Below, piece after piece: positions 2,011 through 9,253 of a DNA stretch of 9,463 bases. Position numbers and translations under genes: made by a program. Each line of letters opens with the position of its first letter. Position 1 is the first letter of the stretch. The DNA is from Pelagibacteraceae bacterium TMED65 (GTDB lineage Bacteria; Pseudomonadota; Alphaproteobacteria; TMED127), in contig NHDS01000028.1 of NCBI GenBank assembly GCA_002167215.1, forward strand, positions 24,843-34,305, read 5' to 3'. The notes beneath the pieces are model-generated. The model was not told the origin of the DNA. It did no database searches and saw nothing but the letters and a program-made list of their open reading frames with translations.

Positions 2011-2072
2011 TAGGTACACTCACAAAGGGTTTTAGAGGGTTCACTCAACAGAATAAAAGAGAGGTAATGTCG
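2001..2072 (+). repeat. Diverged repeat, copy A (ssrA downstream flank)
   Basis: TTGTTTGTTT (2001-2010) followed eight bases later by CTCACAAAGG (2019-2028) recurs with the same spacing at 2388-2415. With small gaps the match continues through AACAGAA and AGAGG to about 2072. The left end of this copy (2001-2019) also matches copy C at 2994-3012. Confidence 0.6.
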
Positions 2073-2387
2073 TAATTAGTTGCAGACAAAGTTGCTAGTT
2101 CAATCTTTATTCTCATTATCTATAATCATCAATGACAAGTTATACATTAGAAGTTTTTCTAGTTTTGTTAAAAATATTTCATTTATATCTATGATAAAAG
2201 ATTGTTATTTGATTTTAATAATTTGAAGGCGCCCTAAACTCTTTCAATCAAAGGAAGGAATAAGTCAAGAACGCCCATATATAAGATTGTAACTTGTTGG
2301 CATTGGTTGAAATTTTTCTTATTTATACCAACTATCATTAATATTTATAAGAAACATACTTAAATGATCAAAGGTTACTTTTTGCAC

Positions 2388-2462
2388 TTGTTTGTTTGAA
2401 GGATCCTCACAAAGGTCTTCAAAGCTTTTCAAAACAGAAATACGAATGAAGAGGAAGTTGCG
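2388..2462 (+). repeat. Diverged repeat, copy B
   Basis: The first 28 bases match 2001-2028 at 23 of 28 positions without gaps, including two exact 10-mers (TTGTTTGTTT and CTCACAAAGG) at identical spacing. Further blocks AACAGAA (2433-2439) and AGAGG (2450-2454) follow in the same order as in copy A, with one- and four-base length differences. No gene or transposase accompanies it. Confidence 0.6.
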
Positions 2463-2498
2463 ACTGCAACTAAATCCAATGTTAATTATTATGGTATC

Positions 2499-2536
2499 GG
2501 TTCAAGCAAAATTACTTTAGTTATAGTGCTTGAACC
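2499..2536. repeat. Perfect 10-bp inverted repeat, possible terminator hairpin
   Basis: GGTTCAAGCA (2499-2508) and TGCTTGAACC (2527-2536) are exact inverted copies around an 18-base loop. It lies 13 bases past the stop of the small minus-strand gene and could end its transcript, but no T-run follows on the minus strand. On the plus strand it is followed by AT-rich sequence and then a T-rich tract. A regulatory or repeat role is equally possible. Confidence 0.5.
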
Positions 2537-2549
2537 AATATTTAATATT

Positions 2550-2708
2550 TTATTCTTTTTTTTCTTTTGTTTCTTCTTCTTTTTCTTCAGAAATTTCTTC
2601 AGTTTTTTCTTCTACAACTTCTTTTTTTTCTCCATGCCCATCCGCTTTTATGGATTCAGAGGAAAATAAAAATGCTAACAAGAAAAATAAAAGGTAAAAA
2701 TATTTCAT
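2550..2708 (-). CDS. Small exported Glu/Lys-rich protein, function unknown
   Basis: 52 codons starting ATG at 2708 and ending TAA at 2550. The start is supported by a GGAG ribosome binding site six bases upstream. The N-terminus MKYFYLLFFLLAFLFSS is a clear signal peptide: one Lys, then about 14 hydrophobic residues. Likely cleavage is after IKA, near residue 22. The rest (DGHGEKKEVVEEK and onward) is almost entirely Glu, Lys, Thr and Val, with about 15 Glu and no Cys, so the mature product would be a roughly 30-residue, charged, probably disordered periplasmic peptide. I do not recognise a family. The ordered signal peptide plus good ribosome binding site argue for a real gene. The tail is encoded by TTC-rich sequence on the plus strand and could alternatively be low-complexity drift. 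Confidence 0.7.
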   Translation of the reverse strand: MKYFYLLFFLLAFLFSSESIKADGHGEKKEVVEEKTEEISEEKEEETKEKKE

Positions 2709-3083
2709 GAATATCTCCAATAAAGGTTAGATATTTATTTTAATAAATCTTTAATCTTTTTGAAATTTTTCTTCTTTATACTTGATATCACCCACTGTTA
2801 TAATACTCAAACTAAAATAACTAAATAAGACATTCTCGTCTTCTTATTGTAAAATTAACACATTAAAAACAGATTAGTACATAAAAGTGTTCATATATTG
2901 CGTACACTTTCAAAGCAACTCATTAATAAAGGATTTTAGAACTCAAACCAGGACACAGAAGGTTGATTGGAAAGGACATGCAATTGTCCAAACTTGATTG
3001 TTTTAGGTAAACAATAAAAATTTCATAGTAAGTATTATTTAATAGATAAAAGTTTAGATTACTTCATAGGTGAAACAATCAAA
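2709..3083. other. Intergenic region with repeats and hairpins
   Basis: About 375 bases without a gene. It should contain the promoter of the small exported protein on the minus strand. Visible structures are a hairpin AATAAGA/TCTTATT (2824-2830/2842-2848), a 7-bp inverted repeat AAAGTGT/ACACTTT (2884-2890/2904-2910), and the ssrA-derived segment at 2915-3012. TATAAT at 2799-2804 lies in a TGTTATAATA context that resembles half a Zur site; I do not call it an operator. Confidence 0.5.
2915..3012 (+). repeat. Degenerate copy of the ssrA 3' end and terminator (copy C)
   Basis: Positions 2947-3012 align without gaps to 1954-2019, with 49 of 66 bases identical by hand count. The match covers ACC-GG...ACAGAAG of the tmRNA coding piece, GCAATTGT of the terminator loop and TTGTTTTAGGTA past the T-run. 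A further block ATTAATAAAG (2922-2931) matches ATTAAGAAAG (1931-1940) just after the tag stop, with a 2-base shift. No tag, acceptor stem or CCA is recognisable upstream. The original terminator stem is lost, but GGACA/TGTCC (2974-2978/2985-2989) forms a new 5-bp hairpin before a T-rich stretch. It is best read as a decayed partial duplication. Confidence 0.7.
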
Positions 3084-3920
3084 TCATATTTGAAATAGTA
3101 CATATTGTTTTTTTGATTCTTCATCAGTTATTTTTGCTTCAAATTCATTTAAAGAAGAATCAAATAATGTGAAATTTTTCCAAATATTTAAAAGAAATTG
3201 AATATTTCGCCCTTTGCGTTCTTTAGGAGGATCAAACACTAATCCTATGATGGGTTGATTACTTTCTGGATTTTTAATATGGGCTCTGAAAATTTCACAA
3301 TTATACATCTCAAGATTTACAGCTGGGACTGACATTCCAGATACTAAATTAACTGGAGAACGTTCATGATGAATTTTCTTCCATTTATAGCCAGTTTCAT
3401 ATCTTTCATTCAAATTAAAGTTTTTTGCTTTTTTAACTATAAACGAATTTTCAATACCAGCTAGTGATAAAATTTTGCCATTTTTACAATCAAATCCAGA
3501 ATAAATTAGGATTTGAAGAAAAATTGGCATTATTGTTGAAGCGATATGTCCCTCAACAAATCTTTCTGCTGCATGCTTTGGACCTGAAATTACTAGATCT
3601 CCATCATCTTTTAAAACGTCATATATTTTATCCAGAAATACTCCCTGATTTCTTTGATGTTCAATCACGTGTGAACAGTGAATCATATCATATTTTGATT
3701 TAAATTCGAATGAATTGAAATCTTCAACAAACTCTGCATCTTTTTCATATTTATCAATAGAATCGACTATTAAACCAAAATCTCTCATTATTTTAGTATG
3801 ACTACCTAGCGCACCACCAATATCTAGAACTTTGAATTTTTTTTTAAAACTTTTCATGGATAAGAGGTATTCTATTAAAACAAATCCACCCCAGTCCAAT
3901 TTTATAAAATTTTTAGTCAT
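3084..3920 (-). CDS. Class I SAM-dependent methyltransferase, substrate unknown
   Basis: 278 residues. The N-terminal half carries the Rossmann-type methyltransferase core. Motif I is VLDIGGALGSHT (residues 31-42), a variant of the E/DxGxGxG loop. The acidic end of strand 2 lies at IVDSIDKY (51-58). YDMIHCSHVIEH (77-88) is the motif before strand 4, and VLKDDGDLVISGP (102-114) the post-motif III strand. This pattern is that of the Methyltransf_11/23 (UbiE-like) groups. The remaining 160 residues have no motif I recognise and may form the acceptor-binding part. No signal peptide or membrane segment is seen, so it should act in the cytoplasm. It stands alone between two gene-poor stretches, so context gives no substrate. 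The start at 3920 is the only sensible Met before motif I, but no ribosome binding site is obvious. Confidence 0.85.
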   Translation of the reverse strand: MTKNFIKLDWGGFVLIEYLLSMKSFKKKFKVLDIGGALGSHTKIMRDFGLIVDSIDKYEKDAEFVEDFNSFEFKSKYDMIHCSHVIEHQRNQGVFLDKIYDVLKDDGDLVISGPKHAAERFVEGHIASTIMPIFLQILIYSGFDCKNGKILSLAGIENSFIVKKAKNFNLNERYETGYKWKKIHHERSPVNLVSGMSVPAVNLEMYNCEIFRAHIKNPESNQPIIGLVFDPPKERKGRNIQFLLNIWKNFTLFDSSLNEFEAKITDEESKKQYVLFQI

Positions 3921-4192: not shown

Positions 4193-6163
4193 TTAATATT
4201 TTAGCTTAAGATTAAACATGAAAGATCTTCCAGGAAGTTGAACTTGAGCTTTTTTTGATTCTAAGTGATCTCTGCCAACAGTATCTAATAGATTGGAAGC
4301 AACTAGCATCAAATGACCTGAAACATTAGAATATGAAAAATCTCTCGTTAGATCAAAGTCTAACCTAGAATGACCACCTGTTCTTGTTTGAAAAGGGCCA
4401 ATAAAATCTTTATCAAAATAATGATAATAGTCTAAGTTAGCGTCCCAGTTATCATTGATCAATTGTAAACCAGCATTTAATTTTGATTGAGGTATTCTAG
4501 ATAGCGCTTTGTCATTTGATGTCCTGTATCCTTTTAAGAAATCAACCATCACACTTGTAATAAAATCAAAATCATCAATTTTAGCTAAACCATATTGACC
4601 ACTTAACTCTGCACCGGTAAAAATAGCGTTGTATTGCTCATGAATTACATTATTAAAATCTTCCCCCTCCACTGCAACCGTAGCTCCATCTCTATCTGCA
4701 GCTATGAAATCATCAATAAAGTTGTAATAAGTTTCGATTTTGATTTTATTTAAATCTTTTCCGTAATTGTAGCCTATTGAAAAATTATATGAGGTTTCTA
4801 CACCTAGGTTTATTTCACCATTCTCAAAATTTTCTAAAGCATGATGTGGACCATTGGCATATAATTCAACAGGGTTTGGTGCTCTTTGAGTAAAGTCAAA
4901 TCCAGCAAAAATCGTATTATTGGGTATGAATTCATTTTTAATTGTTGAAGAAAAGGCACCCGCGAAAAACCCATTTTCGTGATTAGTATTTTTTAGATTT
5001 ACTGATTCAACTCTTCCTCCAAGATCTAGATCAAAAGAATCAAAGTTAAAGTTTTCTAAAACAAAAAAACCAAAGCTATTAGTTTTAGTTCTTTCTAAAT
5101 GACCCTCTTCATCTCCCAATGCCCCTTGGTCTTTATTCTGAAAATGAAAACCAATTAATCCATTTGAATTTTGACTTATTAGTGGTTTGTGATTTACAGA
5201 AGTTTTTAACTCATAAGAATCATTAAAAAAAGTAATATTATGATTTTTTCCTGCTGTAGTTCTTTCCGCATGGTTATATTCAGATGCCGTCCCTTCAAGA
5301 TTAAATTTATCAATAAAATTATTATTTAGTGAAATTGAGGATTTAAAGGAAACAGTGTTCCTAGTTGGATTTAACGAAGTATTGTTTTCTTCACCCTTAC
5401 CTCCAGGAAGAAAGTACACAGCTTCTAATTTGTCAACCGAAACGCCGAAGTAATTGTCCCCATCATTGTAAGTAAAGCCAACTCCTCCAGATGTCATGAA
5501 TTTAGAAGAATTTGGTTGTTTAGAATCTGTATTTGCAAGGTCATAAGATCCTGAGCTTAAAAAACTACCCGAACCCCTTACTGTATAATTACCAACAGAT
5601 TCCGCTAATTTTAACGCTGATTTTAATTCTCCTCCCGAAGTTTGATAACCAAAGTCTGCTTGAATAATTTCAGGGGGAATTAGATTATCAATATTTATTA
5701 GGGGGTTAATAATATTTACAACACCGGCGAAACCATTATTACCATATAAAAGGGTTCCTGGTCCTTTAATAATTTCAATTTTGTCAATTAACATTGGGTC
5801 ATAACCTACAATATGGTCTTCACCAAACTCTGAAACATCACTTAAAGATCCACTGTTTTGTAAAATTTTAACTCGAGAATTAGACATACCTCTGATTATA
5901 GGACGACTTGCGTTTCCTAATCCTTGAGATGAAATACCGGGTAGATCCTTTAACATACTTCCAATAGAATAATTTTTTTTAACTTCCATTTTATGCCCGT
6001 CAAATAAAATATTTCCTCTATCTGCCTCAAAATTTTCAGTTGGTTGAATTTTTGAGGTTATAAAAATATCTGGTGCTGTAAATATAGTATCTGCCGAACT
6101 TTAAAAGCAAAACACTACTGTTGTGAAAAAATAAATTATTTGCTTTTTTAAGGGGAATTTCAT
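4193..6163 (-). pseudogene. ZnuD-like TonB-dependent zinc receptor, interrupted by an in-frame stop after the signal peptide
   Basis: One frame runs from ATG at 6163 to the stop at 4193, broken only by a TAA at 6101-6103. Codons 1-20 (MKFPLKKQIIYFFTT...) are a signal peptide core. After the TAA the frame resumes SSADTIFTAPDIFITSK, a normal mature receptor N-terminus. The plug domain follows: SIGSMLKDLPGISSQGLG, RPIIRGMSNSRVKIL, GEDHIVGYDPMLIDKIEIIKG and TLLYGNNGFAGVVNIINP. A beta-barrel of about 480 residues ends in LPGRSFMFNLKLKY, with the usual terminal aromatic residue. NPVELYANGPHHALENFE in the barrel and the DH of the plug resemble the ZnuD group of zinc receptors. It is divergent from zur across a Zur box, which supports zinc uptake. 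The longest uninterrupted frame starts at 5989 inside the plug, with neither signal peptide nor complete plug, so it cannot be the native start. Either this is a very recent nonsense mutation, a sequencing or assembly error, or readthrough occurs. Confidence 0.8.
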
Positions 6164-6185
6164 TGTAATATGTACTTGATAAATT

Positions 6186-6191
6186 ATTATA
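6186..6191 (-). promoter_or_regulatory. Candidate -10 element of the TonB-receptor gene
   Basis: The minus strand reads TATAAT here, 22 bases before the receptor ATG. Its -35 region would fall at about 6209-6214, inside the Zur palindrome, so Zur binding would block RNA polymerase. No good -35 match is seen. The plus-strand TATAAA at 6194-6199 could serve zur in the same way. Confidence 0.45.
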
Positions 6192-6199
6192 TATATAAA

Positions 6200-6216
6200 G
6201 TGTTATATTATAACAC
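6200..6216. promoter_or_regulatory. Zur box between the zinc receptor and zur
   Basis: GTGTTATATTATAACAC is a perfect 17-bp palindrome around T6208. Its core TGTTATA-N-TATAACA is the known proteobacterial Zur operator. It lies in the 53-bp space between the divergent receptor and zur starts and touches the first zur ATG, so one Zur dimer pair could repress both genes when zinc is sufficient. Confidence 0.88.
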
Positions 6217-6669
6217 ATGATATTTTCAAACTGTTTTATGGTCAAATCGATACAAAAAAAAGCATTTGAATTTTGCTTCAAAAACAAGCATAGATATACT
6301 GAACCAAGAAAAAAGGTTCTTGAAATCGTTTCCTCAAGCAAAAAACCTTTGAAAGCTTATGAAATTTTAGAAAAACTTGGACTTGAACTTAACAATCCAA
6401 AGCCTCCTACCGCTTATCGTGCTATTGAATTTTGGCAAAAATATAACTTTATTCATCGAATTGAAAGTTTAAATGCTTACTCTGCTTGCATATCCGATCA
6501 TTTACATTCAGGTACACAATTCATGATTTGTGATGATTGTGGAAAGGTTATGGAATCAACTTCCTGTGAATTACCCTCCAAAATCCAAAAAGAATTAAAA
6601 AAAAAACAATTTAGAACTACCAAATGGAATCTTGAAATCAGTGGTCAGTGTAATGATTGTTCTTCTTAA
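6217..6669 (+). CDS. zur: Zinc uptake regulator Zur (Fur family)
   Basis: 150 residues, the usual Fur-family size. An N-terminal winged helix includes NPKPPTAYRAIEFW (60-73), the Zur form of the Fur recognition helix. It is followed by FIHRIESLNAYSAC, which aligns closely with E. coli Zur. The regulatory zinc ligands of E. coli Zur (H77, C88, H96, E111) map to H80, C91, H95 or H97, and E113. The structural zinc site maps to C105/C108 (CDDC) and C145/C148 (CNDC). Zn-loaded Zur represses zinc-import genes. A second Met at 6238 gives an N-terminus closer to E. coli Zur and may be the true start; the ATG at 6217 directly abuts the operator, and neither has a visible ribosome binding site. The operator implies autoregulation. 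The 3' end nearly meets the converging DUF3299-like gene, with only 3 bases between. Confidence 0.93.
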   Translation: MIFSNCFMVKSIQKKAFEFCFKNKHRYTEPRKKVLEIVSSSKKPLKAYEILEKLGLELNNPKPPTAYRAIEFWQKYNFIHRIESLNAYSACISDHLHSGTQFMICDDCGKVMESTSCELPSKIQKELKKKQFRTTKWNLEISGQCNDCSS

Positions 6670-6672
6670 ACT

Positions 6673-7263
6673 TTAATTTAAAACTACTTTTGCTTCCTTA
6701 AGACGAAAAAAAATGTTGTAGAGGTCATCATCCGGTACTAACTCCAACTTACCACTTAAATTAATTGCCTCGTATGAATAATTAACTGGTTTTTTTGCGT
6801 GAACTTCTATTATTAAGTTTGAAGAAGCGTGTACATGATATGGACAGCTAATTGGGAAGGGTAACAATAGAAAAGTTTTTTGTTTGTCACTTAGGTCTAA
6901 TGGAAACATATAACCTTGAACCAATATTTTCTTATTTTCCAACAATTTAATTTCAGAAGAAAATTCAGGACGCACACCGGTCCACTCATAACCTTCTTTA
7001 TCTTCAAAAGTGTATTCATTCATTCCTGTTTCCCCAAAAACATCCCAAGGTGTTCCACCATCAGGTAAATTTATAAACTCATCAATGTTAGATATTAAAT
7101 CGGATGTATCGTTAAACTGCTCCTCGTCTTGAACAAAATCTTTCTGAACAGATAAGTTTTCTTGAGACTCCAGGCTCATCAGGCTCTTTGGAATGATTTT
7201 AATAGATATTAGAAAAAGAGAAAAAAAAAGATATTTAATTATAGATTTGATTATTTTATTCAT
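6673..7263 (-). CDS. DUF3299-like exported protein of a zinc-linked ABC operon
   Basis: 196 residues. A Lys-containing N-terminus plus hydrophobic residues 8-24 form a signal peptide or membrane anchor, so the rest should face the periplasm. A spacer rich in Asp, Glu and Gln follows. The C-terminal half has the DUF3299 pattern: KKILVQGYMFPL (111-122), FLLLPFPISCPYHVHASSN (131-149), a beta strand IIEV, and a final INLSGKLELV...YNIFFRLKEAKVVL. From memory, family members carry a proline run after the Cys-His; here it is replaced by C140-P-Y-H143-V-H145, a plausible metal site. It is the last gene of the operon, 14 bases after the permease stop, with AAAGAG before its ATG. DUF3299 proteins accompany similar ABC pairs in the Zur-regulated Zrg zinc-uptake locus of Vibrio (recalled, unverified). 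The molecular role is unknown. Confidence 0.75.
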   Translation of the reverse strand: MNKIIKSIIKYLFFSLFLISIKIIPKSLMSLESQENLSVQKDFVQDEEQFNDTSDLISNIDEFINLPDGGTPWDVFGETGMNEYTFEDKEGYEWTGVRPEFSSEIKLLENKKILVQGYMFPLDLSDKQKTFLLLPFPISCPYHVHASSNLIIEVHAKKPVNYSYEAINLSGKLELVPDDDLYNIFFRLKEAKVVLN

Positions 7264-7277
7264 ATCAACTCTTTGAT

Positions 7278-8633
7278 TTATGTATTCCTAGTTAATTGAT
7301 TTGCAACACTTATTTTTGAAAAAGTGTAAACTGGGAACAGTGCAGCTACAAATCCTGTAAATACAACAATTATAGAAATATAAAATATCTTTGTTGAAAG
7401 CATAAAAGAAACTTGAACAACAGATAGTGTATTAAAAGTAAATACCATTAAATAAAAAATTATAAGACTTATAACAATCCCAATTATAACACCAATAAGG
7501 GCAATGAAAATTCCTTCAAAACAAATTAATTTAAAAATTCTTTTTTTTGAATAACCAATTGCTCTTAAAATAGATAAATCCCCCATTCTATTTTCTAAAT
7601 TAGCTGCCAACCCTGAAAAAACACTCAACGCTGCAAAACAAATTAGAATTACTGATAATATATTTAAACTTTTTGAACCAATTCCTAGCATCGAAGATAA
7701 TCTGGTAATCTCTTTTGCCGGATTTGCTGCCTGCATTAATGTTTCTTTATTTATTTTTAAGGGTAAATTTATGTTTGCTATAGGAGTTTTCGTTGTAATA
7801 AGTAATGCCGTAATTTCTGATGAGTGATTATTTTCAATTGTATCTTCATTACCTTGATGACTATGTTCATTGTGAACCTTTGATTCATGACTTTCGTGAT
7901 CATGAATGTCGTGAGTGTTTGATTCAGATTCATCATGATCATTGTGATGATGATTATGACTGTCATTTTTTTTTAAATTATCGTTATTTTTTAATTTGAG
8001 ATTTTCAAAATTATTTAAATCAACTTTCTTATGGTGATGCATCTCTAGTACTGAATTTAAATCTGTTAATATTAAATTGTCTAGAACCGTACCAGTAGAT
8101 TTCAAAATACCTACAACTTTATATTTATGCTCGTCATGTTCTTTACCACCATCAAACAGTCCATGTGAACCTATAAATTCATCATTTAATCTCAGATTTA
8201 TTGAAGAACCAATTACAACTTCATATTCTTCATCCCAAGTTCTTCCTTTTTGGATTTTTGCCTCGTAGTGATTTAAATAATTTTTTGTTGTTCCTACAAT
8301 TCTTTTTCCTTTCCAACTATCTCCCAGTGCAAGTGGTATTGCTTGTTCCACTTGAGGGTGTGTTATAAATTTTTCAACTTCCTCTAATGGAATATTCCCT
8401 GTTGGCACATCAATATGATAAATAGAAGATAAAACAATTTGTAATGGGCTTCCTTTCGCTCCAATAACTATATCAATTCCTTTCCCATCATTATTAATTC
8501 TATTTTGGACATTATCAGTAAATTGAGTTATTAAAATCGCTATTGAAAGACCAAAGGCAGTTAGTAATGTTGAAAGTAAACAATTTATCCATCTTGATTT
8601 TAATGAATGATATATGTAATCAAAATCATTCAT
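7278..8633 (-). CDS. FtsX/MacB-like ABC permease with His-rich extracytoplasmic insert
   Basis: 451 residues with the FtsX/LolC/MacB layout. One membrane segment is near the N-terminus (about 17-38), then a large extracytoplasmic domain (about 40-320). Three C-terminal membrane segments follow (about 324-345, 370-398, 414-437), with the FtsX coupling motif ENRMGDLSILRAIGYSKKRIF between the second and third. The extracytoplasmic domain carries an insert, residues 199-270, with about 16 His in clusters such as HHHNDHD and HDIHDHESHE plus many Asp and Glu. This suggests zinc binding near the outer face of the membrane. The ATG overlaps the ATPase stop as TAATG, indicating translational coupling, and the DUF3299-like gene follows in the same operon. 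With the nearby Zur box and zinc receptor, the likely role is zinc acquisition or periplasmic zinc handling. MacB-type permeases often transmit mechanical force rather than transport across the membrane, so direct import is not assured. Confidence 0.85.
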   Translation of the reverse strand: MNDFDYIYHSLKSRWINCLLSTLLTAFGLSIAILITQFTDNVQNRINNDGKGIDIVIGAKGSPLQIVLSSIYHIDVPTGNIPLEEVEKFITHPQVEQAIPLALGDSWKGKRIVGTTKNYLNHYEAKIQKGRTWDEEYEVVIGSSINLRLNDEFIGSHGLFDGGKEHDEHKYKVVGILKSTGTVLDNLILTDLNSVLEMHHHKKVDLNNFENLKLKNNDNLKKNDSHNHHHNDHDESESNTHDIHDHESHESKVHNEHSHQGNEDTIENNHSSEITALLITTKTPIANINLPLKINKETLMQAANPAKEITRLSSMLGIGSKSLNILSVILICFAALSVFSGLAANLENRMGDLSILRAIGYSKKRIFKLICFEGIFIALIGVIIGIVISLIIFYLMVFTFNTLSVVQVSFMLSTKIFYISIIVVFTGFVAALFPVYTFSKISVANQLTRNT

Positions 8634-9253
8634 TATTTAATTTCCAAAATTTTTGAAAAATTTTTTTTAATCCGTTGGTCATGTGACGAAACAATCAAAG
8701 TTGATTCTGTTTTTTTTACTTGCTCAAAGATTAACTTAATTACTAATTCAGTGTTTTTATCATCAAGTCCTGAGGTTGGCTCGTCTGCAAAAATAACTTT
8801 CGGATTATTAACCACACCTCTGGCAACAGCTACACGTTGAGATTCACCAAAACTCAAATTTTTTACTATCATTTTATTGTAACCATTCAGGCCAAGATTA
8901 TCGAGTAACTTATTAATATCCAATGAGTTTTTTTTATTTTTGGCAATAGCTATATTTTGCTCTACATTAAGATGTCCAATTAAATGAAGTTTTTGAAAAA
9001 TAAAGCCGAAATTTTCTGATCTAAGTTGATCAAGTTGCAATTCAGATAATAAAGAATACTTTGTGTTTTTAAAATTTATATATCCAGATGAAGGTTTTAA
9101 TAAACCAGATAGCAAATTTATTATAGTTGTTTTTCCGGAACCAGATGGTCCTAGTATAAGTAAATGTTGTTCTTCGTTAACTTTGAAACTCAAGTTATTT
9201 AAAATGATAAAATCTTCAACTTTATATTTAATATTTTTTATATCAAACAGCAT
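8633..9253 (-). CDS. LolD/MacB-like ABC transporter ATPase
   Basis: 206 residues, slightly short for the LolD/MacB-N type (about 220-230). Walker A is GPSGSGKT (35-42), the Q-loop Gln is Q87 in FIFQ, the signature is LSFGESQR (133-140, Phe replacing the second residue of LSGGE), Walker B is KVIFADEPTSGLD (152-164), and the H-loop is H191 in SSHD. All catalytic residues are present. It should drive the permease encoded immediately downstream; the stop overlaps that gene's ATG by one base. The start at 9253 gives the normal N-terminus of the fold (MLFDIKNIKYKV). A good promoter ends only a few bases upstream, so the mRNA is probably leaderless or nearly so. Its substrate is inferred to be zinc-related from the His-rich permease and the neighbouring Zur-controlled genes. 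Confidence 0.93.
   Translation of the reverse strand: MLFDIKNIKYKVEDFIILNNLSFKVNEEQHLLILGPSGSGKTTIINLLSGLLKPSSGYINFKNTKYSLLSELQLDQLRSENFGFIFQKLHLIGHLNVEQNIAIAKNKKNSLDINKLLDNLGLNGYNKMIVKNLSFGESQRVAVARGVVNNPKVIFADEPTSGLDDKNTELVIKLIFEQVKKTESTLIVSSHDQRIKKNFSKILEIK

Follow-up and report, generated by a model that had tools for sequence, protein, structure and literature searches.

A predicted zinc receptor of the TonB-dependent type is interrupted by one early stop codon in the stretch of DNA analysed here (9,463 nt, called the window throughout). With a confidence somewhat better than even, we regard this gene as a recent loss-of-function nonsense allele of a Zur-regulated, ZnuD-like receptor; that the base is real and that function was lost are both inferred. 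On the minus strand, the frame opens with ATG 6163 and reads MKFPLKKQIIYFFTTVVFCF (20 codons) up to TAA 6103–6101. Beyond this stop it goes on as SSADTIFTAPDIF..., with 635 stop-free codons in the same frame, and ends with TAA 4195–4193. A previous sequence-only reading had described one in-frame TAA after 20 codons and an otherwise intact receptor of 635 residues, and re-reading the sequence gave the same result. The features concerned are compiled in Table 1.

Table 1. Features of the receptor locus and its surroundings (positions in the window).
Feature	Position	Strand	Basis
Signal-peptide start, ATG and following codons, 20 in all	6104..6163	-	Aligns with start of P0001
In-frame TAA within the signal peptide, close to its end	6101..6103	-	Read from sequence
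Rest of ZnuD-like TonB receptor frame, 635 codons plus TAA stop	4193..6100	-	Sequence, profile matches
598-aa ORF from first in-frame start past the internal stop	4193..5989	-	ORF reading
Putative palindromic operator of the Zur type, TGTTATAATATAACA on the minus strand, between receptor and divergent zur-like gene	6201..6215	.	Motif match
zur-like Fur-family repressor gene, divergent	6217..6669	+	ORF from first ATG; profile matches
DUF3299 protein, FtsX/MacB-like permease (His-rich loop), LolD-like ATPase	6673..9253	-	ORFs, profile matches

The earlier placement of the TAA exactly between the signal peptide and the mature part holds only in so far as the stop is near the end of the signal. 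By the -3/-1 rule the relatives suggest cleavage after ...SSA, which would place the TAA within the signal peptide, at position -4 or so relative to this likely cleavage site. In either case the window receptor lacks an uninterrupted signal peptide joined to its mature part. The position of the stop is not statistically special. Among the single changes that create a stop in the 656-codon frame, 12 of 285 routes (about 4%, a count which takes in the routes at the stop codon itself) fall within the first 24 codons, and the stop was spotted after the fact; its location is therefore no evidence of design. Recoding of TAA is ruled out, as the sequence-only reading had also argued, since TAA terminates seven of the eight genes whose ends were read in the window (the terminal stop of the receptor counted), the remaining one ending with TGA. 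The first ATG, GTG or TTG in frame past the internal stop is ATG 5989. The resulting ORF of 598 aa has neither a signal peptide nor the 37 N-terminal residues of the mature part, and an annotation starting there would hide the defect, just as had been anticipated.

In a comparison with homologous proteins, none of those listed was found to share the early end of the window frame. A search of predicted proteins clustered at 90% identity yielded 928 matches, and the 120 listed are all 653–673 aa long; no N-terminally short homologue is found among these 120, although N-terminally cut proteins could hide within the 90%-identity clusters. The nearest of the listed matches, P0001, represents a cluster of 28 members and has 97% identity across the mature residues. 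It starts with MNFLSKKQIFYFITTAVFCFESSAD, a signal peptide which is colinear with that of the window and belongs to the same protein, and it has Glu at the column of the stop. That orthologues might encode the signal peptide elsewhere, the case named as refuting in the sequence-only reading, was not found and is rejected on the strength of P0001. At the same column P0002 (88%) and P0003 (87%) have Asp. The previously suggested origin of the stop by a TTA (Leu) to TAA change is thus unsupported. A counterpart of the 37 mature N-terminal residues is seen in the relatives, a rough motif for them being matched in 119 of the 120 listed homologues.

Orthologous loci, whose comparison had been proposed together with the first description of the stop, give the same picture. 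In 21 out of 21 related loci, on contigs titled Alphaproteobacteria or Rickettsiales, the N-terminal frame is open and free of stops; as judged by eye, this holds from the beginning of the mature part back across a stretch resembling a signal peptide. These 21 were taken from 51 loci, 30 from a genome search being left out, many of which are the same places; retained in the counts are L001, with no more than 104 bases ahead of the mature part, L021, which is cut by the end of its contig, and L018, whose receptor frame is broken close to the C-terminus (two overlapping tblastn pieces around 3589–3632). The latter, the only such case among the 21, could reflect either an error or another broken allele. 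Hence among the relatives examined, that is the 120 listed homologues and the 21 loci, the internal stop is found in the window sequence only. Of 32 related genomes that share the order of G001, 21 had a match to the receptor at E <= 1e-100, none of the matches being closer than 78%; the receptor may be dispensable in the other 11, or these genomes may merely be incomplete. Scans for the single protein gave 38 pattern matches in genome contigs and 76 in viral contigs, with no relative in either set, and a plasmid search gave no match. The alphaproteobacterial host is probably marine, to judge from the source labels that some homologues carry (MarineAlpha8 and tara, for example).

The identity of the gene as a zinc TonB receptor, proposed from the sequence alone, is supported by family and structure matches. 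Within the 635-residue part both domains of TonB-dependent receptors are found above their gathering scores, the plug (PF07715, residues 36–127, E 3.5e-14) and the beta-barrel (PF00593, residues 200–590, E 9.2e-23). The top NCBIfam match is ZnuD (NF038289, E 6.3e-61), but its 206.9 bits stay below the curated cut-off (950) and do not make the receptor a formal member of this family; the best solved structure by sequence is likewise ZnuD (PDB 4rdr, E 2.1e-34). Together with the divergent zur-like gene and the Zur-type box, these matches make a Zur-repressed zinc receptor the very probable, predicted function. The box, TGTTATAATATAACA, is exact and the window's only match to the Zur-type motif when up to two mismatches are allowed; by chance 0.10 such matches would be expected, and at least one occurred in 18 of 200 shuffled sequences. 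It is furthermore conserved upstream of the receptor gene: all 21 related loci have it there, 18 of them as an exact copy, and none deviates by more than one base. From this arrangement we infer regulation of the receptor gene by Zur at this putative site.

The zur-like gene, whose true start could be a later in-frame ATG, lies inside the fetched stretch in 8 of the 21 related loci and is directly upstream and divergent, as in the window, in three of them (L003, L005 and L017). The genes for the DUF3299 protein, the permease and the ATPase accompany zur and the receptor in four loci (L001, L015, L017 and L019), and with these two they possibly form a metal-linked transport operon. Elsewhere in the window, ORFs of at least 80 aa are absent between 1643 and 3083, after thyX. 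Part of this stretch is a permuted alphaproteobacterial tmRNA gene at 1691–2018 (Rfam RF01849, 200.6 bits at 1691–1976; ARAGORN 1713–2018, tag ANDNEMALAA), which, for this part, speaks against general decay of the contig. In the remaining ca. 1 kb (about 2020–3083) there is a small minus-strand ORF at 2550–2720, coding for 56 aa with a hydrophobic start followed by an acidic tail.

If the TAA is real, a single recent nonsense mutation would have inactivated this copy of the receptor. A ribosome starting at ATG 6163 would add no more than 20 residues. A protein restarted at ATG 5989, with neither the signal peptide nor the initial 37 residues of the mature part, in which the TonB box is expected, would presumably fail to arrive in the outer membrane. 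As yet no decay is seen in the promoter region, in the Zur box or in the remaining frame. The comparison with P0001, which carries a sense codon in place of the stop, agrees with such a course. Over the mature part 17 of 635 residues differ between the two. In an alignment of 31 sequences (30 of the 120 listed homologues plus the window), the window has one residue that departs from an otherwise invariant column, Lys for Glu at mature residue 235, which is a charge change; P0001 shows no such residue, and in eight members at greater distance the count is zero to three. Of residues that occur in none of the other 29 sequences of the alignment, the window has four and P0001 three, too few to show relaxed selection. 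So few changes give no clear sign of a long decay, as would be expected for a young allele, but relaxed selection is what a true null allele should lead to with time.

The exact operator and the lack of a second lesion would fit a recent change, and they would fit an error just as well. Indeed, the most serious competitor of a nonsense allele is that the TAA arose by base calling, amplification or assembly and that the cells carry an intact receptor. We give this explanation a substantial chance, though one short of even. It accounts equally well for the sequence, as the allele is known in a single copy, and the absence of the stop from all 120 listed homologues and from the signal region of the 21 loci speaks in its favour, as does the otherwise intact frame behind an intact operator. 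The window may, moreover, derive from a metagenome contig of unknown depth, and the frame break in L018 illustrates that records of this kind do contain breaks or errors. Against an error it can be held that no other broken gene was noticed in the window at the level of ORFs and profile matches, and that part of the ORF-poor stretch after thyX is explained by the tmRNA gene. The sequence-only reading had named loss of function, polymorphism and error as options for a single stop in an otherwise intact receptor, a reading which is supported here.

A special case of the nonsense allele would be an on/off polymorphism kept by selection in the population. The allele would then persist at an appreciable frequency, with zinc uptake being traded for protection against phages or bacteriocins through loss of an exposed receptor, which other cells would retain. 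We consider this improbable, both for the polymorphism as such and for this trade-off. The receptor is surface exposed, judged by its family, the P0001 cluster comprises 28 member sequences, and a match in only two thirds of the related genomes, with the ambiguity mentioned above, could point to a dispensable gene. However, no second copy bearing the stop was found among the relatives examined, and a base substitution is no fast switch.

Programmed readthrough of the stop or phase switching, likewise put forward from the sequence alone and here conceived as a means to regulate the amount of receptor, is very unlikely. The frame is open past the stop and the leader contains A6 and T6 tracts, but slippage by one base there would presumably shift the mature part into another frame and would not by itself get past the stop. 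A conserved in-frame stop, as expected of readthrough, was seen in none of P0001–P0003 and in none of the 21 loci. The repeats around the stop comprise one 11-nt direct pair, nine inverted pairs and one short tandem array, none of them a switch-like repeat at the stop: the tandem array (6179–6213, 2.3 copies) is located upstream of the start and away from the stop, and those inverted repeats that lie nearby are AT-rich and either short or imperfect. Also no notable RNA structure was detected downstream of the stop (z 0.62; 147 of 200 shuffled sequences fold at least as well). With a stop that no relative examined shares, no switch repeat or notable structure, and TAA as the usual stop in the window, such a mechanism has no support. 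Equally little credit is due to a working shorter protein restarted at ATG 5989: in-frame ATGs do exist at 5989 and 5956, but the product would lack any signal peptide and the 37 mature residues whose counterpart the relatives have, and, as a clear ribosome-binding site is missing upstream of both 5989 and 6163, this feature does not discriminate between the two starts.

Taken as a nonsense allele or as an error, the window thus holds a single allele, broken or mis-read, of a receptor type already known, and no new mechanism is indicated. A gene caller could begin the protein at 5989 and so mask the missing signal peptide, which calls for caution. If the allele were common in the population, it would mean standing loss of the receptor in uncultured, probably marine, bacteria.

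With ZnuD the window receptor has in common that it adjoins a zur-like gene and a Zur-type box; it differs in being a distant relative that scores below the family cut-off, and in the nonsense codon of the window copy. A further counterpart is ZnuK of Caulobacter, which PMC4176598 presents as an alphaproteobacterial, Zur-repressed zinc TonB receptor; the window receptor is likened to it by the Zur site and the description. In the site list of that paper (PMC4176598) the zrpW and znuM sites have only shorter arms in common, whereas the znuK site has the arms TGTTAT...ATAACA, and the box in the window has these same arms.
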